Origin: Verrucomicrobiota bacterium | GTDB taxonomy: Bacteria; Verrucomicrobiota; Verrucomicrobiia; Opitutales; Opitutaceae | Assembly: GCA_026398065.1 (NCBI GenBank) | Contig: JAPLTR010000802.1 | Span: 1-36,047 of the forward strand | Direction of reading: 5' to 3' | DNA: 36,047 nucleotides | Shown here: positions 22,199 through 35,685 of the stretch, piece after piece | Layout of the letters: every line of letters begins with the position of its first letter | Position numbering within the stretch: position 1 is the first letter of the stretch | Notes under the pieces: model-generated | Databases searched by the model: none | What the model saw: the letters and a program-made list of their open reading frames with translations, nothing else | Told to the model about the DNA's origin: nothing | Program-made: the position numbers and the translations under genes

Positions 22199-23203
22199 TT
22201 ACACGGAGCGCGCTTTCACGGCGGCGCTGTTCTGGCGGGCGCTGTAGAGCAGGGCGGTCTGGGCGGCGGGGATGTTCTCGGCCTTGCCGTGCCAGGTGCT
22301 CAACGACGACTCCTGCAGGGCGCGACCGAAGGAGAAACTGAGCGCCCACGGCCCGGCGGCGGCGCGGTTGATCGCGGTGAGGCGCTGGGTCGCCTGGGTG
22401 GGACTTTGTCCACCGGAGAGGAACACAATGCCCGGCACGGCGGCGGGGACCGTGCGGCGCAGGCAGCGGACGGTGTGGGTCGCGATCTCCTCCTCGGTGG
22501 CCGACTGCTGACAGTCGACGCCGGGCAGCACCATGGCGGGTTTGAGCAGCATGGCCTCGAGGCGGACGCGGTGGGCCGAAAGGGCGGCAAAGACCGTGCG
22601 AAGGGTGATGCTGGCGACCTCTTCGCAGCGGGCGAGGGTGTGGTCGCCGTCCATCAGGATCTCGGGCTCGACGATGGGCACGAGACCGGCCTCCTGGCTG
22701 AGCGAGGCAAACAGCGCGAGGCGGTAGGCGTTCACCTCGATGCAGGTGAGGGAGGGCAGGACCTCCGAGACCGTGAGGACGGCGCGCCATTTCGTGAACC
22801 GGGCGCCCAGGCCGTGATATTCCCTCAAACGCTCGCGGAGGCCATCGAGGCCCTCGGTCATTTTTTCGTCAGGGAAATTCGGGAGGCCGGCGGTCCCGTG
22901 GTCGACCTTGATGCCGGGGAGGATGCCCTGCTTTTGGAGGATCTCCACGAGACGCGTCCCGGCGTGAGCGGTCTGGCGCAGCGTTTCGTCGAAGAGAATC
23001 GCGCCGCTGATGAATTCGCCGAGGCCGGCGGTCGTGAAGAGGGTTTCGCGGTAGGCGCGGCGGCTCTCCTCGTTGGCGGGGATGTCGAGCGGCTTGAAAC
23101 GTTTTTCGATGGTCGGAAAACTTTCGTCGGCGGCGAGAATACCCTTGCCCGGGGCGACCAGGGCCTGGGCGGTGGCATCGAGAGGAGAGGAGGAATTCGG
23201 CAT
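22199..23203 (-). CDS. Class I fructose-bisphosphate aldolase
   Basis: 334 residues, cytoplasmic. The class I (Schiff-base) aldolase pattern is complete: GILAADESFPTIEKRF (Asp26), GIKVDHG (Lys99), RFTKWRAV (Lys138), IVEPEIL (Glu180/Glu182) and LLKPAMVLPG with the Schiff-base Lys221, then LSGGQSPTQATQRLTAIN and SFGRALQESSLSTWHG. It cleaves fructose 1,6-bisphosphate to glyceraldehyde 3-phosphate and dihydroxyacetone phosphate in glycolysis and runs the reverse reaction in gluconeogenesis. Asn is replaced by Ala after KP in the usual LLKPNMV motif, a minor change. ATG 23203 gives a normal N-terminus. The upstream region to the copper ATPase holds a repeat element. Confidence 0.95.
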   Translation of the reverse strand: MPNSSSPLDATAQALVAPGKGILAADESFPTIEKRFKPLDIPANEESRRAYRETLFTTAGLGEFISGAILFDETLRQTAHAGTRLVEILQKQGILPGIKVDHGTAGLPNFPDEKMTEGLDGLRERLREYHGLGARFTKWRAVLTVSEVLPSLTCIEVNAYRLALFASLSQEAGLVPIVEPEILMDGDHTLARCEEVASITLRTVFAALSAHRVRLEAMLLKPAMVLPGVDCQQSATEEEIATHTVRCLRRTVPAAVPGIVFLSGGQSPTQATQRLTAINRAAAGPWALSFSFGRALQESSLSTWHGKAENIPAAQTALLYSARQNSAAVKARSV

Positions 23204-23367
23204 GTGGCGCGGGTGGAGAGACGGACCACGGTTCGGGCGGCGGGTTGCGGCGCCGGGAAAAATTACCGGGGACGCCGCGCCGATGAAAAGGGCGCGTGGA
23301 CGCTATGTCGCTGGGAGCCACGCGAATCAGAAGGAACGTGGCGCGATACGTGCCGGGAGGTCCAGAT

Positions 23368-23401
23368 GGATTGCTTCGTCGCTGCGCTCCTCGCAATGAC
23401 A
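23368..23401. repeat. REP-like interspersed element (GGATTGCTTCGTCGC type)
   Basis: The 34-nt segment begins GGATTGCTTCGTCGCTGCG and ends with TCGCAATGACA; its ends (ATTGC and GCAAT) are complementary. I recognise this sequence type as an intergenic repeat seen in many unrelated bacterial genomes. It lies between the aldolase start and the copper ATPase stop and might end the ATPase transcript. Confidence 0.6.
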
Positions 23402-23419
23402 GGAGGGGACGTGAACGGA

Positions 23420-25483
<2,064 letters not shown>

Positions 25484-25597
25484 GAGTGAAAAACGGAGTC
25501 GCCTCCGGAAGATGACAGACAGCGATTCTGCGGGATGGGAGGGCAGAGAGGCGAACTATTCGCGCGGCGAGGGTGGTGCGGATATTACCTGAATGTG

Positions 25598-25628
25598 AAA
25601 AAAAGGGCCGGGCGGAGCGCCCGGCCCT
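25598..25628 (-). terminator. Rho-independent terminator
   Basis: On the minus strand an 11-bp perfect stem (AGGGCCGGGCG and CGCCCGGCCCT, loop 3 nt) is followed by TTTTTTT. It ends the transcript of the Cys-rich gene (stop at 25651). The best terminator in the window. Confidence 0.9.
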
Positions 25629-25650
25629 GAAAAGCAACGGAGGGGCGGTT

Positions 25651-25992
25651 CTATCGGCAGCAGGCGAGGGTGCCGCAGGCGGCGGCGCGGACCATGGTGT
25701 CCTTGGTCTGGCTGTGGGTGGTGGTGACGGCGCCACTGCAGAGGCTGCAACTATGCATGCTTTGGGCGATGGCGGCGTCATGGGCGCCCCTGCCGTTCGG
25801 GCCGCGGTCGCCGGAGAGTGACGGCGTGGTGGTCGCGCAGCCGCCGCAGGAGGCGGGGGCGGGCTTGGCGGCGGGAGCGGAGGGGGCCGGCCGGTTCCAG
25901 TATTGCGGGCCGGGGCCGGCGAGGGCGATGGCGGCGAAGCCCAGCGAGGCGAGGAAGGCGGCGAGAGCGGGGAGGGCGTGGAGCGTTTTCAT
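25651..25992 (-). CDS. Secreted Cys-rich protein of the metal regulon (unknown family)
   Basis: 113 residues. The signal peptide MKTLHALPALAAFLASLGFA ends near ALA-G26. The mature part of about 88 residues has seven cysteines: CGGC (49-52), CSLC (82-85), Cys106 and CC (111-112), with Met79-His80 next to the CSLC pair. A Pro/Ala-rich linker with NRPAPSAPAAKPAPA separates signal and first CxxC. No family is recognised. Cys pairs plus Met/His suggest thiolate metal binding or disulfide exchange in the periplasm. It has its own promoter, matching those of the efflux and sigma operons, and a strong terminator, so it is a monocistronic gene that would be strongly induced together with copper efflux. 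Confidence 0.75.
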   Translation of the reverse strand: MKTLHALPALAAFLASLGFAAIALAGPGPQYWNRPAPSAPAAKPAPASCGGCATTTPSLSGDRGPNGRGAHDAAIAQSMHSCSLCSGAVTTTHSQTKDTMVRAAACGTLACCR

Positions 25993-26038
25993 GAGGAGGA
26001 TTTTCGGTGGTTGGTTGAGGGAACGGACGTTGTCATCC

Positions 26039-26069
26039 GGCACTACACCGCAGCCGGGCGTTTCCCTTG
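26039..26069 (-). promoter_or_regulatory. ECF-type promoter of the Cys-rich gene (motif copy B)
   Basis: Minus-strand TTCAAGGG (CAAGGG at 26064-26069), exactly 14 nt, GGTGTAGTGCC (26039-26049), then two bases and ATGACA. Identical in the core to the motif upstream of the efflux operon, including spacing and the ATGACA. The ATG of the gene (25992) is about 40 nt beyond the expected transcription start. Confidence 0.75.
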
Positions 26070-26136
26070 AAAAAGCGATGCGTGGGGATTGTTCGGGATG
26101 GCGCGCGGATTGCGGTTGCGGGCGGGGCAAGCAAAT

Positions 26137-26164
26137 GGCGCGGCTCCTGGAAAGACGCCGCGCC
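26137..26164 (-). terminator. Terminator candidate of the efflux operon
   Basis: GGCGCGGC (26137-26144) pairs perfectly with GCCGCGCC (26157-26164) over 12 nt, 24 nt past the cusA stop. A second, weaker stem, ACCAGTT/AACTGGT (26175-26181 and 26190-26196), spans the stop codon and is followed by TTTTC on the minus strand. Confidence 0.45.
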
Positions 26165-26187
26165 GTAGTCGAAAACCAGTTACACCA

Positions 26188-29100
26188 TCAACTGGTCCTG
26201 GCCGGGGAGGTGAACTCGCGTTCACGGAGCCAGGCAAAGATCACGGGCGTGACGACCAGAATGTGGAGGAGGGAGGACAGCATGCCGCCGACGACGGGGG
26301 CGGCGAGGGGTTGCATGACCTCGACGCCGGTGCGGGTGCTCCAGAAGATCGGCAGCAGGCCGGCGATGGCGGTGGCGACGGTCATGACCTTGGGGCGGAG
26401 ACGGAGGCGGGCGCCCTCCTTGATGGCGGCAATCAGGTCGGCGCGGGAGAACGCGGCGCCGCGTTCGGCGCGTTTTTTGGCCACGGCGTCTTCGAGGTAG
26501 ACGACCATGACGACGCCGGTCTGGATGGCGGTGCCGAAGAGGGCGATGTAGCCGACCCAGACGGCGACGCTGAAGTTGAAGCCCATAAACCACTGGAGGA
26601 GGACGCCGCCGGTGAGGGCGAAGGGCACGGCGAGGATGACGTGGGCGGCCTCGGCGGCGGAGTGGAAGGTCATTGCGAGGATCACGAAGATGATCACGAG
26701 CACGACGGGCATGATGAGATAGAGCGTCTGGCGGGCGCGGAGCTGGTTTTCATACTGGCCGCTCCACTCGACGGTCATGCCGGGGTCGAGCTTCAGGTCG
26801 CGGGCGATGGCGACCTTGGCGTCGTCGACGAAGGAGCCGAGGTCGCGGCCGGTGACGTTGGCCTGGACGAAGACGCGGAGCCGGCCGTTTTCGCTGGCGA
26901 TTTCATTGGGGCCGAGGATGCGTTGGATGGTGGCGATCTGGCCTAGCGGGACGAAGCGGGCGGGTTCGCTGCCGGGGATGGCGACAGGCAGCGCGCCGAG
27001 GCGGTCGAGGTCCTCGCGGTCGGCACGTTCGAAGCGGACCTGCACGGGCCAGCGCTCGCGGCCCTGGATGGCTGTGGTGACGTTTTTCCCGCCGATGCCG
27101 GTTTCGACGACGGCGAGCACGTCCTCGAGGCTGAGCGCGTAGCGGGCTAGCGCGGCGCGGTCGGGAGAGATCTCAAGGTAGGGCTTGCCCTGCACGCGGG
27201 AAGGGGCGACGCCGGTGGCGCCGGGAATCCGGTTCACGATCTGCTCCAGCTCGAAGGCCTTTTTCTGCAGCGCATCGAGGTCGTCGCCGAAAATCTTGAT
27301 GCCGAGCTGGGCGCGGATGCCGGTGGCGAGCATGAGAATGCGGTTCTCGATGGGCTGAAGAAAACCGGGGACGTAGCCGGGGACCTGCGTGAGCTTGGTG
27401 GTGAGCTCGGCGATGAGTTTTTCCTTCGTCAGGCCGGGACGCCACTCGGTGGCGGGTTTGAGCATGATGGTGGTCTCGATCATCTCGGTGGGCGCGGGAT
27501 CGGTGGCGGTGTCGAAGCGGCCGAGCTTGCCGGCGACGCTCGCGACCTCCGGCGTGGCGCGGATCACGCGGTCCTGCCAGGCCATGATGCGCTTCACCTC
27601 GGTGAGGGACGTGCTGGGGAGGAGCACAGGCATGAAGAGGAGCGAGCCTTCCTGCAGCGTGGGCATGAACTCGGAGCCGAAGCCACCGAACCAGGTTGAG
27701 ATTTGAGGGTTGAGAGTTGAGAGACGATCCCGGAGAAACTGAGGGAGGCCGAAGGCGAGGATGACGCAGAAGGCGAGGAGGGTGGCGGCGAGGGCGAGGA
27801 CGGTCTTGCGGCAGCGGAGGGCCCAGTCGAGGACGGGGTTGTAGATCGCCATGAGGGCGCGCATGACCCAGTTGCGGTCCTCGGCGTGAAAGGGACCGCG
27901 CACGAGGAAAGTGCAGAGGACGGGGACGAGGGTGACGGCGAGGACGGTGGCGCCGATCATCGCGAAGGTCTTCGTCCACGCGAGGGGGTGGAAGAGTTTT
28001 CCCTCCTGACCGGTGAGCTGGAAGATCGGGATGAAGGCGAGGATGATGATGCCCATCGCAAAGAAGATGGGGCGGCCGACCTGCTGCGACGCGGCGAGGG
28101 TGACGGACCAGGTCTCGTCGCGGGTGAGAGGACGGCCGAGCTTGTGCTCCTCCTGTTCGCAGTGGCGGATGACGTTTTCGGTCATCACAATCGCGGCGTC
28201 CACGAGCACGCCGATGGCGATGGCGATGCCGGTGAGCGACATGATGTGCGACTGGATGCCGAACTCCTTCATCAAAATGAAGGCGACGAGGATCGAGGCG
28301 GGGAGGGGCAGCGTGACGATCAGGATGCTGCGGAAATGGAAGAGGAAGATAACGTGCATAAGCGTCACGAGGATGACGGCCTCCCACAGCGTGTGCTTGA
28401 GCGTCTCGATCGCGCGGTCGATGAGGTCGCTGCGGTCGTAGAAGGGCTCGATGGTGATGCCGGGCGGGAGACCGGCGGAGATCTGGGCGATCTTGGCCTT
28501 CACGTCCTGGATGACCTGATACGCATTTTCGCCGGTGCGCATGACGACGGTGCCGCCGACGACCTCGTGGCCGTCGACGTCGAGGATGCCGCGGCGGTAG
28601 TCGCCGCCGATCTGCACGGTTGCGACGTCGCGGAGATAGACGGGAGTGCCGTTGCGCGAGGCGAGGGCGATGGTCTCGAGGTCGGCGGCGGAGTTGATGA
28701 GGCCGCGGCCGCGGACGACGAATTCGAGGCCGTTCTCCTCGAGGGTGCGGCCGCCGACGTTGAGGTTGTTCTTGCCGATGGCGTCCATCACCAGTTGCAG
28801 CGGGATGCCGAACTGCTTCATGCGCAGGGAGGAGACCTCGACCTGCCACTGGCGGACGAAGCCACCGATGCTGGCGACCTCGGCCACGCCGGGGACGGCG
28901 GCGAGCTGATAGCGGACGAAATAGTCCTGGAGGGCGCGGAGGGAGCCGAGGTCCTGTTTGCCGGAGGTGTCCTTCAGGTAATACTGGAAGACCCAGCCGA
29001 GTCCGGTCGCGTCGGGGCCGAGGCGCGGGGTGACGCCGGCGGGGAGGATGTTGCCGAGGTAGTTGAGGCGTTCGAGGACGCGGGTGCGGGCGAAGTAGTT

Positions 29101-29406
29101 GTCGAGCTTGTCCTCGAAAATGACCGTGATGAGCGAGAAACCGAACATCGACGTGGCGCGGACGGTGCGCACGCCGGCGAGGCCCTGGAGATTGACGGAG
29201 AGCGGGTAGGTGACCTGGTCCTCGACCTCGCGCGGGCTGCGGCCCTCCCAGTCGGCGAAGACGATCACCTGGTTTTCGCTCAGGTCGGGGATGGCGTCGA
29301 TCGGCACGCGGCGGACGGCAAAGATGCCCCAGCCAAAGAGGAGCAGGGTCGCCCCGAGGACGAGGAAGCGATTTTGCAGCGACCACTTGATGAGAGCGTT
29401 GATCAC
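26188..29406 (-). CDS. cusA: CusA/CzcA-family heavy-metal RND efflux pump
   Basis: 1072 residues, GTG start at 29406. It is an inner-membrane proton-driven RND transporter with twelve membrane helices and two large periplasmic loops. Motifs: FADWEGRSPREVEDQVTYPL near the N-terminus, the proton-relay Asp in IAIGVLVDAAIVMTEN in TM4, and the periplasmic NRILMLATGIRAQLG segment that in CusA carries a copper-binding Met, which favours Cu/Ag over Co/Zn/Cd. Between GLPQFLRD and FGSEFMPTLQEGSLLF lies the extra stretch RLSTLNPQISTWFGG, encoded by a 7-nt periodic repeat and absent from relatives I know. It is the last gene of the operon with the YHS-like, TolC-like and CusB genes, 157 bp after cusB. 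Confidence 0.92.
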   Translation of the reverse strand: MINALIKWSLQNRFLVLGATLLLFGWGIFAVRRVPIDAIPDLSENQVIVFADWEGRSPREVEDQVTYPLSVNLQGLAGVRTVRATSMFGFSLITVIFEDKLDNYFARTRVLERLNYLGNILPAGVTPRLGPDATGLGWVFQYYLKDTSGKQDLGSLRALQDYFVRYQLAAVPGVAEVASIGGFVRQWQVEVSSLRMKQFGIPLQLVMDAIGKNNLNVGGRTLEENGLEFVVRGRGLINSAADLETIALASRNGTPVYLRDVATVQIGGDYRRGILDVDGHEVVGGTVVMRTGENAYQVIQDVKAKIAQISAGLPPGITIEPFYDRSDLIDRAIETLKHTLWEAVILVTLMHVIFLFHFRSILIVTLPLPASILVAFILMKEFGIQSHIMSLTGIAIAIGVLVDAAIVMTENVIRHCEQEEHKLGRPLTRDETWSVTLAASQQVGRPIFFAMGIIILAFIPIFQLTGQEGKLFHPLAWTKTFAMIGATVLAVTLVPVLCTFLVRGPFHAEDRNWVMRALMAIYNPVLDWALRCRKTVLALAATLLAFCVILAFGLPQFLRDRLSTLNPQISTWFGGFGSEFMPTLQEGSLLFMPVLLPSTSLTEVKRIMAWQDRVIRATPEVASVAGKLGRFDTATDPAPTEMIETTIMLKPATEWRPGLTKEKLIAELTTKLTQVPGYVPGFLQPIENRILMLATGIRAQLGIKIFGDDLDALQKKAFELEQIVNRIPGATGVAPSRVQGKPYLEISPDRAALARYALSLEDVLAVVETGIGGKNVTTAIQGRERWPVQVRFERADREDLDRLGALPVAIPGSEPARFVPLGQIATIQRILGPNEIASENGRLRVFVQANVTGRDLGSFVDDAKVAIARDLKLDPGMTVEWSGQYENQLRARQTLYLIMPVVLVIIFVILAMTFHSAAEAAHVILAVPFALTGGVLLQWFMGFNFSVAVWVGYIALFGTAIQTGVVMVVYLEDAVAKKRAERGAAFSRADLIAAIKEGARLRLRPKVMTVATAIAGLLPIFWSTRTGVEVMQPLAAPVVGGMLSSLLHILVVTPVIFAWLREREFTSPARTS
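27696..27723. repeat. Four-unit heptad repeat inside cusA
   Basis: TTGAG recurs at 27696, 27703, 27710 and 27717, exactly 7 nt apart, as TTGAGNN units. On the coding (minus) strand it is read as part of RLSTLNPQIST, between the end of a membrane helix and the conserved GSEFMP segment. The reading frame is kept. Confidence 0.75.
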
Positions 29407-29424
29407 GGGAGAAGGAGCGGGGGA

Positions 29425-29558
29425 GATTTTCGATTTGGGATTTTCGAATTTCGATTTTTCGGACTTTGGCGGACGGGAGACGGAGAGCGGGCCGGTTCGA
29501 TTTCAGGTCGCGGGCGCCGCCAGTGGTCCGGGTAATCGAAAATCCAAAATCGAAATTC
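29425..29558. repeat. Inverted pair of heptad repeats between cusB and cusA
   Basis: Block 1 (29425-29447, continuing periodic to 29461) is built of 7-nt units such as TTTTCGA. Block 2 (29536-29558, continuing to 29563) is built of TCGAAAA and TCCAAAA units. The 23 nt of block 1 and the reverse complement of block 2 match at 21 positions, so the transcript can fold into a long AU-rich stem with an 88-nt loop. The stop codon of cusB (29564-29566) touches block 2. Confidence 0.75.
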
Positions 29559-29563
29559 CAAAA

Positions 29564-31189
29564 TCAGGGGACTTCGCTACCGCAGTCGGCCATCGCGGAG
29601 CCGTAGAAGGGGTTTTTGAGCGGTTCGCCGCGCTGGACCCAGCGGCCCTTTTTCAGGACGGGCGACATGGGGCACTGGAAGATCTTCACGCCGAGGTGCG
29701 CGCGGTGGGGCTTGAGCAGATCCGCGACGGCGGTGCTCCAGGGCTCGAAGGAGCGGCGGGCGGACTTGAGGTCGGTGCCGAGTTCGAGGGCGGGGAGGGC
29801 GGGGAAGTTTTTCGCGACGGCGGCGAGGGTGGGGAAGAGCTTTTGGTAAGCCGCGTAGTCGTCGGCGGCGAGGACGGCGGCGGAGTCGATGGCGGCGGTG
29901 GCGAGCGCGGAGAGATCGGCGGTCGCGGGGGCCGGGGAGGATGCGGGTGCGGACGGTGCGGCCATGGCGGGCGAGGGTGCGGCGGGGCCGGAGGCGTGTT
30001 CGCTGGCCTCGTTGGCGAGCTGGGCCTGGGCGTCGACGAGGAGGGCGCCGTGGGTGACGACCTTGTCGCCCTCGGTCAGGCCGGAGAGGATCTCGACGAG
30101 GCCGTCGCCGCGGCGGCCGAGGGAGAGGGCGCGCTGCTCGTAGTGGCCCTCGCCGCGGTCGATGTAGGCGACGGGACCGGTGCCGCGGTCGAGGACGGCG
30201 GCGCGGGGGGCGGCGAGGACGGCGGGGGATTGGACGAGGACGCGGCCTTCCGCGAGCACGCGGTGGTAGAGCACATGGGAGGTGCCGGAGGCGCTGACGT
30301 GGGGATTGGGGAGGACGACGCGGACCTTGGCGGTGCGGGTCATTTCATCGAGGTTGGGGTTGATGAAGGTGATGGGGGCGGTGATGACCTCGCCGGGAAT
30401 CGAGCGGGCGGTGATCTCGACGGTCTGGCCGACGGCGAGCCAGGGAAGATCCTGCTCGTAGGTGTCGAAGAGGAACCACATTTTCGAGAAATCGCCGATC
30501 TCGAGGAGCTTGTCGCCGGTCTTGACCCACTGGCCCTCGTAGACGGATTTGGCGACGACGGTGCCGCTGTCGGGGGCGAGGATGGTGGTGACGAGCGGAG
30601 GCTCGCCGGCCTTCAGGAGCTCGGTGAGCTGGGTATCCGCGAGACCCATACGCAGGAGGCGGGCGCGGGCGGCGGGGAGGGCGGAGGCGGCGAGTTCGCC
30701 GGCGCGGGCGAGCTGGACGAACTCGCGCTGGGCGGTCTGCAACTCGGGGCTGTAGAGCTCGAGGAGGGGTTCGCCGGCCTTGACGGAGGCGCCGACGACG
30801 TTGACGTGGAGTTTTTCGACGCGACCCTCGGCCCAGGCGGTGAGGAGGCGATGGCGGGTGTCGTCGTCGTCGATGGCGCCGGTGACGCGGACCGTGCGGG
30901 TCAGAGATTGGCGGGAAACGACGGAGGTCTCGACGCCGATGGCGGTGATGATGGACGGGGCGAGAGCGACGACGCCCTCGGGGGCCACGGCGGTGGAGGC
31001 GGCGACGAGGTCCATGCCGCAGACGGTGCACTTGCCGGGTTTTTCGGACTTGATCCACGGGTGCATCGGGCAGCGGTGGACGGCGGCGGGAGCCGAAGTC
31101 GTGGCGTGGTCATGCGCGGGTTCGGCGGCGGTGAGGGCGGGGCCGCCGAGCATCAGGGCGGCGAAGGCGGTGAAGAGGAGACGTTTCAT
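29564..31189 (-). CDS. cusB: CusB-type periplasmic adaptor with metal-binding domains
   Basis: 541 residues. Signal MKRLLFTAFAALMLGGPALTA; then a heavy-metal-binding domain HRCPMHPWIKSEKPGKCTVC (Cys40, Met42, His43, Cys54, Cys57, Met59), typical of CusB/CzcB-type adaptors. The adaptor core shows VRVTGAIDDDDTRHRLLTAW, a barrel-sandwich hybrid, an alpha-hairpin (LQTAQREFVQLARAGEL) and beta-barrel FLFDTYEQDLPWLAVGQTVEI. A C-terminal DUF3347-type domain ends with FQCPMSPVLKKGRWVQRG and NPFYGSAMADCG, adding further Cys/Met ligands. It links the pump to the TolC-type channel and hands over Cu/Ag. Its ATG overlaps the TolC-like stop by 4 nt (ATGA). Confidence 0.92.
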   Translation of the reverse strand: MKRLLFTAFAALMLGGPALTAAEPAHDHATTSAPAAVHRCPMHPWIKSEKPGKCTVCGMDLVAASTAVAPEGVVALAPSIITAIGVETSVVSRQSLTRTVRVTGAIDDDDTRHRLLTAWAEGRVEKLHVNVVGASVKAGEPLLELYSPELQTAQREFVQLARAGELAASALPAARARLLRMGLADTQLTELLKAGEPPLVTTILAPDSGTVVAKSVYEGQWVKTGDKLLEIGDFSKMWFLFDTYEQDLPWLAVGQTVEITARSIPGEVITAPITFINPNLDEMTRTAKVRVVLPNPHVSASGTSHVLYHRVLAEGRVLVQSPAVLAAPRAAVLDRGTGPVAYIDRGEGHYEQRALSLGRRGDGLVEILSGLTEGDKVVTHGALLVDAQAQLANEASEHASGPAAPSPAMAAPSAPASSPAPATADLSALATAAIDSAAVLAADDYAAYQKLFPTLAAVAKNFPALPALELGTDLKSARRSFEPWSTAVADLLKPHRAHLGVKIFQCPMSPVLKKGRWVQRGEPLKNPFYGSAMADCGSEVP

Positions 31190-32301
31190 GACTGGTCGGC
31201 GGCGCCGGTGAGGGTCGCGAGCATGGCGTTGTAGCGCTGAAAATCGGCGAGGCTGGCGGCGAGGGTGTTCTGGGCGTCGATGAGGGCGCGCTGGGCCATG
31301 ACGAGCTCGGTGAGGGAATTTTTTCCGGTGACGAGGCCCTGGCGGAGGGTGTCGGACCCCTGGCGGGCGAGCGGGAGGAGGCGGTCGCGGTAGAGTTCGA
31401 CGGTGCGGCGGGCGGTGTCGCGGCGCTGCCACATCTCGCGGACCTCGCCGGCGGTGCGGGTGCGGAGGGCGGCGGCGTCGAGCTCGGCGGCCTCGCGACG
31501 GCGGGCGGCCTCGCGCTGGGCGGAGCGGTATTTGTCGATGTTGGCCCAGGGAAGGCTGAGGGCAATGCCGGTGTCGTAGTCGTTGACGAAGCGGCCGCCG
31601 GCGTCGACGTGGCGGGCCTTGACCATGACCTCGGGATCGGGGCGCCAGGCGCGGGCGGCGACATCCTCGGTGCGGGCGGCGGCGGTGATGCGGGCTTCGG
31701 CCTCGCGCAATTCGGGCCGATGGGCGAGGGCGTGGGCCTGGGCGTCTTCGAGCGTGGCGAACGCGGCGGCGGTGCCGGGGGCGGGCGCGGCGAGTTCGCC
31801 GATGGGCGACTGGGGCGGGAGGTCGCGCAGGGTGTTGAGCGTGGCGGAGGCGTCGGCGGCCTCGCGTTCCAACATCAGGACGCGCTCCTGCAACTGGGCG
31901 CGCTCGCGTTCGGCGGCGAGGAGGGCGGTGGTGTCGGCGCCGCCGGTGGCGAGGCGGCTGCGAACGAGATCGGCGGCCTGGGCGAGAAGGCGGTCGGAGG
32001 CGGCGACGAGGGCGAGTTGCTCGCGGGTGCGGATGAGCTGGAAGAAGGCGTCGCGGGCGGAGGCGACGAGCAGGAAGGAGCGGGTGCGAATCTGCAGCTC
32101 GAGTCCGGCGACGGGGTCCTCCCAGGCGCCCGCCTGGGTGATGCGCTCGCGGTCGGCCGAGGCGGTCGCGGTGGCGGATTTGATCTCCGGGTGCCGTGCG
32201 CGGACGTCGGCCAGCACCTGCTCGAGCGTGAGCGGGGCTTCGCCGGCGAAGACGGAGCGCCCGAGGAGGACGAGCAGGGTGAGGCCGGCGAGGGCGCGCA
32301 T
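31186..32301 (-). CDS. TolC-family outer-membrane channel (CusC-like), short
   Basis: 371 residues. A signal (MRALAGLTLLVLLGRSVFA) and LTLEQVLADVRARHPEI open the first outer-membrane efflux repeat; the second repeat starts around ATLEDAQAHALAHRPELREAEARI and ends TGKNSLTELVMAQRALIDAQNTLAA, the usual closing helix. It should be the channel of the CusABC-type complex. Relatives are about 410-460 residues; here WEDPVAGLELQIRTR runs directly into SFLLVASARDAFFQLIRTREQ, so the strand-loop-strand part of the first repeat looks missing by roughly 45 residues. This may impair the barrel or be a natural variant. It lies 24 bp after the YHS-like gene and overlaps cusB. Confidence 0.85.
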   Translation of the reverse strand: MRALAGLTLLVLLGRSVFAGEAPLTLEQVLADVRARHPEIKSATATASADRERITQAGAWEDPVAGLELQIRTRSFLLVASARDAFFQLIRTREQLALVAASDRLLAQAADLVRSRLATGGADTTALLAAERERAQLQERVLMLEREAADASATLNTLRDLPPQSPIGELAAPAPGTAAAFATLEDAQAHALAHRPELREAEARITAAARTEDVAARAWRPDPEVMVKARHVDAGGRFVNDYDTGIALSLPWANIDKYRSAQREAARRREAAELDAAALRTRTAGEVREMWQRRDTARRTVELYRDRLLPLARQGSDTLRQGLVTGKNSLTELVMAQRALIDAQNTLAASLADFQRYNAMLATLTGAADQS

Positions 32302-32325
32302 GGCGGGGAGCGGGAGGGGAATGGA

Positions 32326-32646
32326 TTACTTCGAAGCCTTCGCCTTTGCGGCGGCGGCATCGTCGATCTTCTTCAGATACTTGGCGGGCTCCTTCTCGAA
32401 ATCCTTGATGCAATCCTTGCAGCAGAAGATGACGAGGCGGTCGGGTTTGCCGGCCTGCTTGTAGGTGTATTCGACGGGCTTGCCCATGTCGCCGCCGAGC
32501 TTGTCGTCGGAGACGACGCAGGTGGTGAGGGGGTAGTTGGCCATTTTGACGGCGGAGGGACCGGTAGACTTGTCGTGGTGGTCGGCGGCAACGGCGACGC
32601 CGGTGAAGAGGGCGGAGGCGAGGAGGAGGGAGCGGAGGAGGTGCAT
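32326..32646 (-). CDS. Secreted YHS/TRASH-like metal-binding protein
   Basis: 106 residues. Signal MHLLRSLLLASALFTGVAVA, then a His/Asp start (DHHDKST). The core YPLTTCVVSDDKLGGD followed by LVIFCCKDCIKDFEKEPAKYLKKID has the YHS/TRASH layout: an early Cys (43) and a later FCCxxC (75-79) before an EKEPAKYL helix. Such domains bind Cu or Zn through Cys. As the first gene of the efflux operon it is a likely periplasmic metal carrier or buffer delivering copper to CusB. The 5' leader of about 50 nt is C-rich without Shine-Dalgarno. An ECF-type promoter lies upstream. Confidence 0.85.
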   Translation of the reverse strand: MHLLRSLLLASALFTGVAVAADHHDKSTGPSAVKMANYPLTTCVVSDDKLGGDMGKPVEYTYKQAGKPDRLVIFCCKDCIKDFEKEPAKYLKKIDDAAAAKAKASK

Positions 32647-32704
32647 GGCGGAGGGAGCGGTGAGTTTGGTGGATTGCGTCGCGCGAAAAGCGCGGCTGTC
32701 ATGA

Positions 32705-32735
32705 GGCACTACACCGGTGGTCCGAAAAACCCTTG
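32705..32735 (-). promoter_or_regulatory. ECF-type promoter of the copper efflux operon (motif copy A)
   Basis: Minus-strand TTTTTCAAGGG (CAAGGG at 32730-32735), 14 nt, GGTGTAGTGCC (32705-32715), two bases, ATGACA. It drives the YHS-like, TolC-like, cusB and cusA genes. Its -35 is back-to-back with that of the sigma operon. Function inferred from three matching copies in the window. Confidence 0.75.
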
Positions 32736-32742
32736 AAAAAAG

Positions 32743-32774
32743 TTCGAGGGTTTTGGGCTGCGGCGGGGTAGTGC
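32743..32774 (+). promoter_or_regulatory. ECF-type promoter of the sensor/sigma operon (motif copy C)
   Basis: Plus-strand TTCGAGGG (32743-32750), 14 nt, GGGGTAGTGC (32765-32774). It matches copies A and B except for G in place of A in the -35 and G in place of T in the -10. The ATG follows at 32787, so the transcript would be leaderless or nearly so. The weaker match fits low-level autoregulation. Confidence 0.65.
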
Positions 32775-32786
32775 AGGCATACGACT

Positions 32787-33086
32787 ATGAACACACCCCG
32801 GGATTCCCTCGACCAAGTCCTCTCCGCGTGGCGCGTGCAGCCGCGGCGGGAGCCGCAGTTTCGCACGCAGGTCTGGGCGCGGATCGCGGCGGCGCGGCGT
32901 TCAGACTCGTGGGCCGGCTACCTGCGCGGACACGCGGCATCGGTGGCGGGCGGGCTGGCGCTTGCGGTGGTGCTGGGCGCGGTCGGTGGCCGGACGCAGG
33001 CGCGGGCGCGGGCGGCGGCGGAGAGCGAACGCCTCGCCACGTCCTATGTGCAGTCGCTCGACGCGCGGAGCATGCGGATGCCATGA
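32787..33086 (+). CDS. Single-pass membrane protein, anti-sigma candidate (CnrY-like position)
   Basis: 99 residues: a cytoplasmic N-terminal part of about 46 residues (DSLDQVLSAWRVQPRREPQF), one helix (HAASVAGGLALAVVLGAVGG, about 49-68) and a periplasmic tail ending SYVQSLDARSMRMP. This layout, the place as first gene before a periplasmic sensor and an ECF sigma factor, and ATGA overlap with the sensor gene match the CnrY type of anti-sigma factor that holds the sigma factor at the membrane. No significant motif proves it. The start codon is only about 6 nt from the expected transcription start. Confidence 0.7.
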   Translation: MNTPRDSLDQVLSAWRVQPRREPQFRTQVWARIAAARRSDSWAGYLRGHAASVAGGLALAVVLGAVGGRTQARARAAAESERLATSYVQSLDARSMRMP

Positions 33087-33511
33087 AGAATTTCTGGCTG
33101 ACAGTCGCGGCGGTGCTGGCGGCGTGTGGGGTGGCCTTCGGGACCTTTTACCTGCTGAACGACGCGCCGGAGCTCCACCGGGCGGCGCGCGAGAACGACG
33201 CGATGGCGTGGCTGCGCGCGGAGTTTCACCTGAACGACGCGCAGTTTGCGGCCATCAAGAAGCTGCATGACGACTACGGGCTGGTGTGCGGCGAGCATTG
33301 CGCGGCGATCATGGACGCGCGTGCGCGCAAGGCGCCGGCGGTGGAGGTCGCGGCGCTGGAGAAAGTCTGCGTGGATGCGATGACGGCGCATTTCCGGCGC
33401 GTGGCGGCGGAGATGCCGGCGGGCGAAGGCGAGCGGTACCTCGCGACGGTGCTCCCGCGGGTGTCCGGCTACACCCATGCCGGGGCGCCCAACGTGCGGG
33501 TCACGCCGTGA
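33083..33511 (+). CDS. Spy/CnrX-like periplasmic heavy-metal sensor
   Basis: 142 residues. One N-terminal membrane segment (FWLTVAAVLAACGVAFGTFYLL) is followed by an all-helical periplasmic domain starting LRAEFHLNDAQFAAIKKLHDDY, the four-helix hooked-hairpin layout of CpxP/Spy/CnrX proteins (LxxxQ-like start). Candidate metal ligands: His62, Cys69, Glu71, His72, Cys73, Cys96, Met100, His103 and Met111. CnrX uses His, Glu and Met side chains for Ni/Co; the Cys-rich set here fits a thiophilic metal such as Cu(I). Metal binding would release the sigma factor from the anti-sigma protein. It overlaps both neighbours (ATGA and TGATG). Confidence 0.8.
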   Translation: MKNFWLTVAAVLAACGVAFGTFYLLNDAPELHRAARENDAMAWLRAEFHLNDAQFAAIKKLHDDYGLVCGEHCAAIMDARARKAPAVEVAALEKVCVDAMTAHFRRVAAEMPAGEGERYLATVLPRVSGYTHAGAPNVRVTP

Positions 33512-34080
33512 TGGATACGCCGGACGAGGCCGCCCAGACGGCGGCGGAGGATGCCGCGCTGATGGCGCGGGTGCAGCGCGGCGACGAGGCGGCGCTCGGG
33601 ACGCTGATGGAGCGCTGGGAGCGCCCGGTGAAGAGCGTGATCGGACGCGTTGTGTTGAACGCCACCGAGGCGGAGGAACTCGCGCAGGAAACGTTTGTGC
33701 GCGTGTGGCAGCAGCGGGAAAAATTTCAGACGGGCGCCGCGTTCCGGCCCTGGGTGTTTACGATCGCGGTGAACCTCGCGCGAAACCGGCTGCGGTGGTG
33801 GCGCCGGCGGCCGACGGTCGAACTGCAGGAGTGGACCGAGACGGGTGACGGCGGACGGATGGGCGAGAACCGGCTGGAGACCGCCGAGCGGGCGGCGGCG
33901 GTGCGCGACGCCATCGCGGAGCTGCCATTGGAGTTGCGCGAGGCCATCGTGCTTTTCGAATACGAGCAGATGTCGTATGCCGAGATCGCCCTGGCCGTCG
34001 GAGCGACGGCCAAGGCGGTGGAGACCCGGATCTACCGGGCGAAGGAGAAGCTGCGCGCGGCGCTGAAGCGGTGGGCGTGA
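33511..34080 (+). CDS. ECF RNA polymerase sigma factor
   Basis: 189 residues. Region 2 is seen in LMERWERPVKSVIGRVV, EAEELAQETFVRVWQQREKF and FRPWVFTIAVNLARNRLRWW; region 4 in LPLELREAIVLFEYEQMSYAEIALAVGAT followed by VETRIYRAKEKLRAAL. No extra C-terminal domain. Stop and start of the neighbour overlap (TGATG), so it is translationally coupled to the sensor. The gene order anti-sigma, sensor, sigma is that of cnrYXH. Its regulon probably consists of the three promoters with the TTCAAGGG/GGTGTAGTGCC motif, one of them its own. The downstream hairpin CGGGAG/CTCCCG (34111-34125) may end the operon. Confidence 0.93.
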   Translation: MDTPDEAAQTAAEDAALMARVQRGDEAALGTLMERWERPVKSVIGRVVLNATEAEELAQETFVRVWQQREKFQTGAAFRPWVFTIAVNLARNRLRWWRRRPTVELQEWTETGDGGRMGENRLETAERAAAVRDAIAELPLELREAIVLFEYEQMSYAEIALAVGATAKAVETRIYRAKEKLRAALKRWA

Positions 34081-34160
34081 GCTTTCCGCGGAGATGCCCG
34101 GCGTCAGATCCGGGAGTGTCTCCCGCGCGATCAGTCGGCGGGGCGGCCGGGCCGTGAAGT

Positions 34161-34688
34161 CTAAGGGGCAAAGACTTCGTCGTCGGGGGTGTGGCGCTTT
34201 TTGTCGGGGCCGGCGCTTTCGATGGTCATCCGCGTGCCGCTTTCGGCGTGGAAGAAGAACGGGGTGCCCCAGCGGTCGCAGAGCTCGCCCTCCTGGTTGA
34301 TCGCGGGGTGGTCGGGCGGGATGAGGGCGAGGCGGAGCCTGTTCTGACCGGTGAGAACGGCGGTGATCTCGGCGTTGGTGCCGACGGGATTGCCCTCGCG
34401 GGGGAAATTGGTGCGGAAGGTGGCGAGGATGTCGGAGACGACGCGGAGATCGGCGCGGATGTTGGAGGAGGGGGTGTTGAGCGTGTCGGCGAGGGTGCTG
34501 CGCTCGCCGGCGCTCGCGGTGATTTTCGAATTTGGATTTTCGCTTTTCGATTGGGCGGGGGCGGGTACGGGGGAAGCGGGGAGGGCGGAGGGGGCGGGCG
34601 GGACGGTGGGAGCGGCCGGCCAGAAAAACCAGACGAGGAGCGCGACGATGAGGGCGCTGAGGACGACGGTGAGGGTGGGGCGTTTCAT
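34161..34688 (-). CDS. Membrane-anchored protein with pseudopilin-like C-terminal segment
   Basis: 175 residues. One N-terminal helix (LTVVLSALIVALLVWFF), a Pro/Ala linker, a repeat-encoded insert QSKSENPNSKIT, and a C-terminal part with CDRWGTPFFFHAESGTRMTIESAGPDKKRHTPDDEVF. This WGTPxxxH...SAGPDxxxxTxDD pattern is like the Ca-binding end of GspG-type major pseudopilins, and I recall standalone versions in Verrucomicrobia. It lacks the pilin leader Gly-Phe-Thr-Leu-Glu. Role unknown. It converges on the sigma operon and has a C-rich leader. Confidence 0.72.
   Translation of the reverse strand: MKRPTLTVVLSALIVALLVWFFWPAAPTVPPAPSALPASPVPAPAQSKSENPNSKITASAGERSTLADTLNTPSSNIRADLRVVSDILATFRTNFPREGNPVGTNAEITAVLTGQNRLRLALIPPDHPAINQEGELCDRWGTPFFFHAESGTRMTIESAGPDKKRHTPDDEVFAP
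34521..34550. repeat. Heptad repeat inside a coding sequence
   Basis: Four 7-nt units (TTTTCGA, ATTTGGA, TTTTCGC, TTTTCGA at 34523-34550) form the same element as the pair between cusB and cusA (20 of 23 nt shared with either). On the minus strand it is translated as QSKSENPNSKIT inside the Pro/Ala linker of the gene at 34161-34688. Confidence 0.75.
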
Positions 34689-34761
34689 GCGGGGCGAGAG
34701 GGAGAGTTGACCGCGAGGGCTGCGAAAAGTCGCGGAGGAAAAGGGCGGGCGACGGTGGCGG

Positions 34762-35685
34762 TCACACGGCGACGTCGGTGCTGGGGAACTTGTGCCGCAC
34801 GCGCTCGCGGTGGAGGAGGTAGAGGCCGGAGCCGATCACGATGGAGCTGCCGATGACCGTCCAGCGGTCGGGGCTTTCGTCAAAGATGACGAGGCCGAAG
34901 AGGGCCGCCCCGATGATCTGCACGTAGAAGAACGGGGCCAGCAGCGACGCGGGCGCATGGCGGTGCGCGAGGATGAGGAGCCAGTGGGCGAGCGCGCCAA
35001 ATCCGCCGAGGGCGACCAAGACGGCCCAGACCAGCGGCGACGAGGGTGTCTGCCAGAGGAAGGGCAGCAGGGGCGACACGACGAGGGTGCCCATCAGGCT
35101 GGTGTAGAGCATGGTGGTCTCGGGCCGGTCGTGGGCGGCGAGCAGACGCGTCGCGAGGAAGTAGAACGCGTTGGACAGGGCGGCCAGCGCGGCGAACAGG
35201 GCGGCGGGATGCACGCTGTGGCCGAAGGGTCGCGTGACGATCAGCACGCCGGAAAACCCGACCAGCACGGCGATGAGGCGGCGCGGCCCGATACGTTCGC
35301 CCAGCAGCGGGCCGGCGAGCAGGGCCGTGGCCAGCGGCGCGGAAAAGCTGATCGAGGTGAGCTGGGTCAGCGGCAGGTAACGCAGGGCGAGAAAAAAGCC
35401 GAGGGTCGAGCCGACGAGACACAGGGCGCGGCCGCATTGCAGGCCGAGCTTCTTCGTGCGGACGAGGTCGGGGCGACGCCATGGTTGCAGGAAGGCGACG
35501 ACGACCAGCAGGCTTACGAAGTAGCGGACGCCCGCGATCTGCAGGGGCTTGAGGTCGCGGTTCAGCCATTTGGCCGATGCATCCATGCAGCAGAAGCACG
35601 CGACCGCGCCCATCAGGATGAGAATGCCCTTCAGCGGCTTGGCGGAAGAGATCGTGGTCGGTGCGCCGGCAGGCGAAGCGGTCAT
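34762..35685 (-). CDS. EamA/DMT-family transporter, full length
   Basis: 307 residues with ten predicted helices in two EamA repeats: GILILMGAVACFCCMDASAKW, AGVRYFVSLLVVVAFLQP, LGFFLALRYLPLTQLTSISFSAPL, ALLAGPLLGERI and LIAVLVGFSGVLIVTRP in the first, then PAALFAALAALSNAFYFLATRLLA through APFFYVQIIGAALFGLVIFDE and IGSSIVIGSGLYLLHRER in the second. These proteins export metabolites or amino acids; the substrate is not deducible. The start at 35685 gives a short polar N-terminus. It is probably a single gene. Confidence 0.88.
   Translation of the reverse strand: MTASPAGAPTTISSAKPLKGILILMGAVACFCCMDASAKWLNRDLKPLQIAGVRYFVSLLVVVAFLQPWRRPDLVRTKKLGLQCGRALCLVGSTLGFFLALRYLPLTQLTSISFSAPLATALLAGPLLGERIGPRRLIAVLVGFSGVLIVTRPFGHSVHPAALFAALAALSNAFYFLATRLLAAHDRPETTMLYTSLMGTLVVSPLLPFLWQTPSSPLVWAVLVALGGFGALAHWLLILAHRHAPASLLAPFFYVQIIGAALFGLVIFDESPDRWTVIGSSIVIGSGLYLLHRERVRHKFPSTDVAV

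Follow-up and report, generated by a model that had tools for sequence, protein, structure and literature searches.

A likely CnrYXH-like sigma factor regulon for periplasmic copper stress in Opitutaceae, with a promoter element that covaries with one sigma residue

We examined a 36,047-nucleotide stretch of DNA (hereafter, the window) from a Verrucomicrobiota bacterium of the family Opitutaceae (GenBank assembly GCA_026398065.1, contig JAPLTR010000802.1, forward strand, positions 1 to 36,047), in which a metal efflux operon and an operon of three co-directional genes diverge from a common gap. The three genes, in the order Y-X-H, encode an anti-sigma-like protein (Y), a putative CnrX-like periplasmic metal sensor (X) and an extracytoplasmic function (ECF) sigma factor (H). 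We consider it likely that these genes form a small regulon of the CnrYXH kind for periplasmic copper stress, in which H would read both its own promoter and the divergent promoter of the efflux operon. The first-pass annotation, made from the letters of the window, had already proposed that this sigma factor recognises a motif shared by the two promoters and drives both operons, and the proposal is now supported by the recurrence of the sites, by an operon-specific core pattern and by covariation of residue 92 of H with the -10 element.

Promoter-like sites in the window and in related genomes

The motif TTCRAGGG-N14-GGKGTAGTGC was present in three exact copies in the window (Table 1), and in none of 100 shuffles. 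As first described, two copies stand back to back in the 140 nucleotides that separate the two divergent start codons (ATG at 32646 and at 32787), the distance from CAAGGG to GTAGTG is 17 nucleotides, and the third copy lies elsewhere with the identical N14 spacing; the pair begins at 32706, one nucleotide later than the 32705 originally given. In the genome of origin (7.22 Mb in 1004 contigs, 89.5% complete) these three were the sole exact matches with spacers of 12–16 nucleotides allowed, and the reversed control gave none. The genome-wide scan suggested by the first-pass annotation placed every exact copy in the cluster. Its looser form, with up to three mismatches, gave 19 matches (3 exact, 0 with one mismatch, 1 with two mismatches and 15 with three) vs 14 in total for the reversed control. 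A scoring matrix built from 32 sites in relatives, with no window site included, put the three window sites at ranks 1–3 (scores of 26.2, 24.9 and 15.3; the next score was 7.2).

The transcript of the Y-X-H operon is predicted to start near 32780, about 7 nucleotides ahead of the ATG, because relatives have a conserved A about 11 nucleotides past the TA of the -10 element. The distance from this TA to the first in-frame start codon was 2–26 nucleotides (median of 17) in 43 loci, the shortest values possibly being miscalled upstream GTG or TTG codons; near-leaderless translation of Y may therefore be common.

A sigma factor search of a species-genome collection recovered 31 loci, 18 of which were close relatives (L004–L021) from records named Opitutae, Opitutaceae, Opitutus or Verrucomicrobia, with sigma factors 62–79% identical over the best segment. 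The layout of a YHS-like gene, a gap and Y-X-H was kept in 16 out of these 18, the other two ending at contig edges, and each of the 16 gaps contained two divergent sites of equal internal length. A profile search with X gave matches in 84 of 150 family genomes, from which we added 30 loci, these being the best-scoring X matches and not a random sample. After removal of 21 duplicates, 43 distinct loci with Y remained out of 64. Sites were scored with a leave-one-locus-out matrix and had to exceed 99% of Markov nulls: the autoregulatory (right) site passed in 42 of the 43 loci and the divergent (left) site in 36. Four loci (L081, L092, L094 and L098) came from searching with the core pattern described below and were left out of a 39-locus set not chosen by motif, in which the right site with its fixed spacing was found in 38 loci and a matching left site in 35; in loci outside the matrix training the counts were 21 and 19 out of 22, respectively. 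The sole right-site exception was L061, where GAGGGATT and GTATAA nonetheless stood in register. The near invariance of GGG and TA in these sites is partly by construction, because the site finders favoured or imposed both.

We derived a strict core pattern, GGGATTT-N10-GGKKTATA, from the relatives' own sites. Scanning related genomes, as had been advised with the original motif, gave 20 matches to this pattern in the 150 family genomes and none to its reversed control. Of those 20 matches, 18 were at the Y-X-H operon (17 just upstream of an X match and one preceding a contig-edge Y gene); the other two, one inside an open reading frame (ORF) and one antisense at an ORF start, involved frames that were TonB-receptor-like by eye. 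The full window motif with at most one mismatch was found only in its own genome among 177 genomes of the order, the reversed control appearing once in each of three others; thus, the full motif is lineage-specific and the core alone recurs.

The distance between the divergent GGG boxes was uneven across the 36 two-site loci: 14–18 nucleotides in 18 loci, 27–30 in 8, 37–41 in 5 and 64–169 in 5. Two polymerases may exclude each other where the boxes are 14–18 nucleotides apart. At least 146 out of 252 family genomes had an X match, and three genomes of the same genus (G231, G274 and G346; completeness of 95, 82 and 83%, respectively) had none among the matches listed; within this genus the module may thus be accessory.

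Covariation of sigma residue 92 with the -10 element

Site positions were numbered from the first G of GGG (position 0), which puts the TA at positions 21–22. The covariation set comprised 69 sites (80, minus 4 lacking a sigma match and 7 lacking an in-register TA), of which 65 were below 90% identity. In these 65 non-redundant loci residue 92 of H and -10 position 18 formed the strongest background-corrected pair of protein and DNA positions (z=11.8), and the pair in second place joined W96 to the same base. Both amino acids belong to region 2.4, and N92 aligns with the second Asn of IAVNTAKNYL in Escherichia coli sigma-E (residue 84 by count). Region 2.4 was enriched for pairs with the -10 core (p=0.0002) and not with the spacer (p=1.0). 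An early lead on T172 disappeared from the top 25 pairs after correction for redundancy and background and was discarded.

Across 112 loci the base at position 19 was G or T in 76 of 78 loci with Asn92, and C in 25 of 26 with Asp92 and in 5 of 5 with Ser92. In terms of the -10 element, the C of CGT was missing in 77 of the 78 Asn92 loci, and a CGT-type -10 was found in 30 of the 31 Asp/Ser92 loci. Three loci with His or Gln at residue 92 (L055, L057 and L060) had GGGA at positions 17–20; GGGATATA stood at all three of their right sites and all three of their left sites, and therefore the two promoters share the change. These three loci make up a small natural variant set for specificity.

We then turned to a held-out set of 78 new loci among the matches listed in the 252 family genomes, with sites picked by a rule that ignored positions 17–20; this finder alone was blind to those positions, that for the 40 fetched loci having given them small weight. 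Two loci without H, 9 duplicates and 24 loci below the site cutoff were excluded. In the 43 loci tested, C stood at position 19 in 17 of 17 with Asp92 or Ser92 vs 1 of 26 with Asn92 (Fisher p=4e-11, with relatedness ignored). The Asn92 exception, L186, reads TCCC and may be a misplaced site.

On a tree of the 112 loci built without residues 84–100, 110 loci were concordant (Asp or Ser with C, others without), the exceptions being L122 and L186. A model of dependent evolution, fitted with our own script, was preferred (p=2.5e-5), and parsimony gave 3 residue switches and 5 base switches. Isolated joint switches were found inside Asn clades in L061 (Asp, GTCGTA) and L210 (Ser, GGCGTA).

The divergent site was almost confined to loci with Asn, His or Gln at residue 92. 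At a cutoff that 20 of 2000 shuffled segments reached, a left site was present within 300 nucleotides in 60 of the 112 loci, namely 56 with Asn92, 3 with His92 or Gln92 and one with Asp92; this lone site among the 31 Asp/Ser92 loci reads GGAATA and looks spurious.

Taken with the promoter sequences, these patterns incline us, with some reserve, to the view that a sigma clade of the Opitutaceae type left the AAC/CGT promoter for a G-rich one (GAGGGWTT and GGKKTA), that one residue of region 2.4 sets the -10 element (Asn with G/T, Asp or Ser with C, His or Gln with GGGATA), and that both divergent promoters change together with this residue, in a natural rewiring of a small regulon.

Weighing of the alternatives

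The paired motif might instead be a palindromic operator of a dimeric copper regulator, with another sigma factor transcribing the genes. Its -35 halves do form an inverted repeat, and a simple consensus scan of positions 23000–34800 found no sigma-70-type promoter that would explain basal expression. We rejected this reading, to which we attach almost no credence, on three grounds: the distance between the halves varies from 14 to 169 nucleotides in the two-site loci, yet each directional GGG-to-TA unit is constant; 30 of the 31 Asp/Ser92 loci have a right site and no left site within 300 nucleotides; and the -10 part covaries with region 2.4 of the sigma factor. A different ECF sigma factor encoded in the genome could also be the reader of the motif, with H as a bystander, since such genomes may hold several of these factors and linkage alone is insufficient to exclude one of them. 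This too was rejected as highly improbable, given that residue 92 and the -10 bases change together, in the held-out set as well, and that the strict pattern is nearly exclusive to the Y-X-H operon.

Shared ancestry might account for the covariation if one clade had acquired Asp92 and C at position 19 by chance; the small number of residue changes by parsimony and the low p values of some control comparisons are in keeping with this. The joint switches of L061 and L210 within Asn clades, the preference for the dependent model, the location of the top pair in region 2.4 and the lack of signal between spacer positions and that region make such a coincidence very unlikely. An inducer other than copper, either another metal or envelope stress, seems unlikely to a lesser degree. 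CnrX senses nickel and cobalt, and the resistance-nodulation-division (RND) pump adjoining the module varies among relatives. Against this stand the CusA-type methionine triad of the window pump, the nearby CopA-like ATPase, the invariant Cys, His and Met residues of X, and an ORF behind the left site of L006 that was read by eye as a multicopper oxidase. We use the copper label because of those methionines, the CopA-like and CusB-like neighbours and the invariant residues.

Several results weigh against the proposal that H reads both promoters of a CnrYXH-like copper regulon. The main limit is that independent events are few despite the 112 loci, because parsimony gives only three switches at residue 92. 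Region 4.2 was not enriched for pairs with the -35 element in the 65 loci (p=0.87), and two control comparisons that were expected to be empty had low p values (p=2e-5 between the spacer and region 4.2, a small effect with a largest z of 1.5; p=0.02 between the -35 and region 2.4). The position-18 rule was weaker, a base other than G occurring in 10 of 15 held-out Asp loci, and L047 has C at position 19 of its left site, the only such case among the 56 Asn92 left sites. Of the 78 held-out loci, 24 yielded no site that passed the cutoff; their lower-scoring sites mostly fit by eye, several being without a clear site. The core pattern misses most X loci, that of the window's genome included, and for this reason speaks for specificity and not for coverage.

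Further points of this kind concern the components of the regulon. H matched the solved structure 6in7 (sigma-H/AlgU) with 90 bits, E. coli RpoE with 79 and CnrH with 56; it is thus nearer to RpoE/AlgU-type factors than to CnrH, and X and Y show at best weak similarity to CnrX and CnrY. The third motif copy was not beyond chance by the matrix taken alone (15.3, the best of 100 Markov resamples being 18.7), and its -35 lacks the TTT of the GGGWTTT found in most relatives. Finally, copA may fall outside the transcript of the third promoter because a terminator-like hairpin stands between them, which leaves its membership of the regulon unproven.

Genes of the cluster and comparison with known systems

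Table 1. Predicted genes and regulatory elements of the cluster, with window coordinates
Feature	Position	Strand	Basis and remarks
Predicted autoregulatory promoter of the Y-X-H operon	32743..32774	+	-35 TTCGAGGGTTTT, -10 GGGGTAGTG; exact motif match, recurs in relatives
Predicted divergent promoter of the efflux operon	32706..32737	-	-35 TTCAAGGGTTTT, -10 GGTGTAGTG; exact motif match, recurs in relatives
Third copy, probable promoter of the Cys-rich gene	26040..26071	-	Exact motif match; -35 GGGAAAC
Y, anti-sigma-like protein	32787..33086	+	99 residues; a single hydrophobic stretch (residues 50-68); resembles CnrY in position and topology alone
X, putative CnrX-like membrane-anchored periplasmic metal sensor	33083..33511	+	142 residues; weak Metal_resist and CnrX structural matches
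H, ECF sigma factor	33511..34080	+	Sigma70_r2 5.5e-16 (58.6 bits), Sigma70_r4_2 8.1e-15 (54.7 bits)
Small secreted YHS-like protein, first gene of the divergent operon	32326..32646	-	CCxxC motif; YHS E=0.00044, below cutoff
Outer-membrane factor, CusC-like	31186..32301	-	OEP 9.4e-30
CusB-like adaptor with heavy-metal-binding domain	29564..31189	-	HlyD_D23 4.3e-58, HMBD 1.9e-9
CusA-type RND pump	26188..29406	-	TIGR00914 1095 bits
Secreted Cys-rich protein behind the third copy	25651..25992	-	113 residues; similar genes behind the left site in relatives
Terminator-like hairpin after the Cys-rich gene, before copA	25604..25628	-	11 pairs, 10 of them G-C, plus a T run
CopA-type copper P-type ATPase	23420..25483	-	TIGR01511 559.5 bits; CPC at residue 345

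The last gene of the rightward operon had been called an ECF sigma factor from the sequence, and both sigma domains of H indeed scored above the cutoff. H has 189 residues, with the sigma2 and sigma4 domains only. Y gave no Pfam or NCBIfam family match above the cutoff. Across 17 X sequences eight residues were invariant (H62, C69, H72, C73, C96, H103, M111 and H132). The Pfam domain Metal_resist was found on 7 of these 17 at E<=0.1 (best 1.8e-7), the window copy having 0.02, which is below the cutoff. In the fold comparison of X, CnrX entries appeared at Z 6.0–6.7 among unrelated helical entries that reached 8.2, and sequence comparison of X with solved structures gave no CnrX match. The pump scored 875 bits with CusA and 547 bits with ZneA, and its segments EGSLLFMP, APTEMIET and NRILMLAT align to three CusA methionines, which are conserved in it and which we take to form the copper site.

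By analogy with CnrYXH, the membrane protein Y would keep H inactive at rest, and copper binding by the Cys, His and Met residues of X would alter the Y-X complex and free H. RNA polymerase carrying the freed sigma factor would then recognise promoters built as GRGGGWTT...GGKKTA at a fixed spacing, namely those of its own operon (positive autoregulation), of the divergent operon of the YHS-like and CusCBA-like genes and, less surely, of the Cys-rich gene.

In Cupriavidus metallidurans, cnrYXHCBAT is a tandem nickel/cobalt determinant in which CnrYXH combines an ECF sigma factor with an anti-sigma complex (YX) at the membrane, and the promoters cnrYp and cnrCp start 24 and 25 nucleotides upstream of their genes (excerpts of PMC9045368). 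The present module resembles that system in its gene order, its ECF sigma factor and its two sigma-dependent promoters, here predicted. It differs in the divergent layout, the CusA-type pump, an X with invariant Cys residues and an unusual promoter (-35 GAGGGWTT, -10 GGKKTA), and the inducing metal is probably different too.

Positive autoregulation is typical of ECF sigma factors, residue-to-base rules for them have already been derived from autoregulated promoters (Todor et al. 2020), and a -35 AAC with a -10 CGT was an early hallmark of the group that was later dropped as a requirement (all as given in excerpts of PMC8103513). The autoregulation proposed here agrees with such canonical systems, whereas the promoters do not: AAC was found in the -35 of 0 of the 112 right sites, and the clade of the window is without the CGT -10. 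Myxococcus xanthus CorE and CorE2 represent a copper-dependent type of ECF sigma factor (excerpts of PMC3107203); unlike these, H has no C-terminal regulatory extension (region 4.2 ends at residue 181) and no Cys.

We found no description of this sigma clade in the open-licence PMC literature. The CnrYXH kind of module and residue-base rules of ECF factors are known; what the present module appears to add is the divergent gene arrangement, the CusA-type pump and the unusual promoter. The analysis predicts the promoter code of a metal-stress sigma factor, the sensor gene of which was matched in at least 146 of the 252 family genomes. It also takes the motif of a single window to a prediction, put to the test here, of the protein that reads it, and offers natural variants for the study of sigma factors and promoters that change together.

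AAC, the core of the classical ECF -35, is present in the third motif copy, in contrast to all 112 right sites counted. The Cys-rich protein behind it had no Pfam or NCBIfam match, and terminator-like sites such as the hairpin that follows its gene numbered 12 in the region vs 5.2 expected. A counterpart of this Cys-rich gene comes first behind the left site in L058 (E=2.7e-11), with weaker similarity in L062 (E=0.002), and possibly in L006. Because such relatives follow left sites in L058 and L062, the third copy is supported as a promoter despite its poor -35. The small secreted Cys-rich proteins that come first behind the left promoter in these two loci are encoded at 2424–2804 (L058) and 2373–2624 (L062), and such proteins may bind copper in the periplasm.
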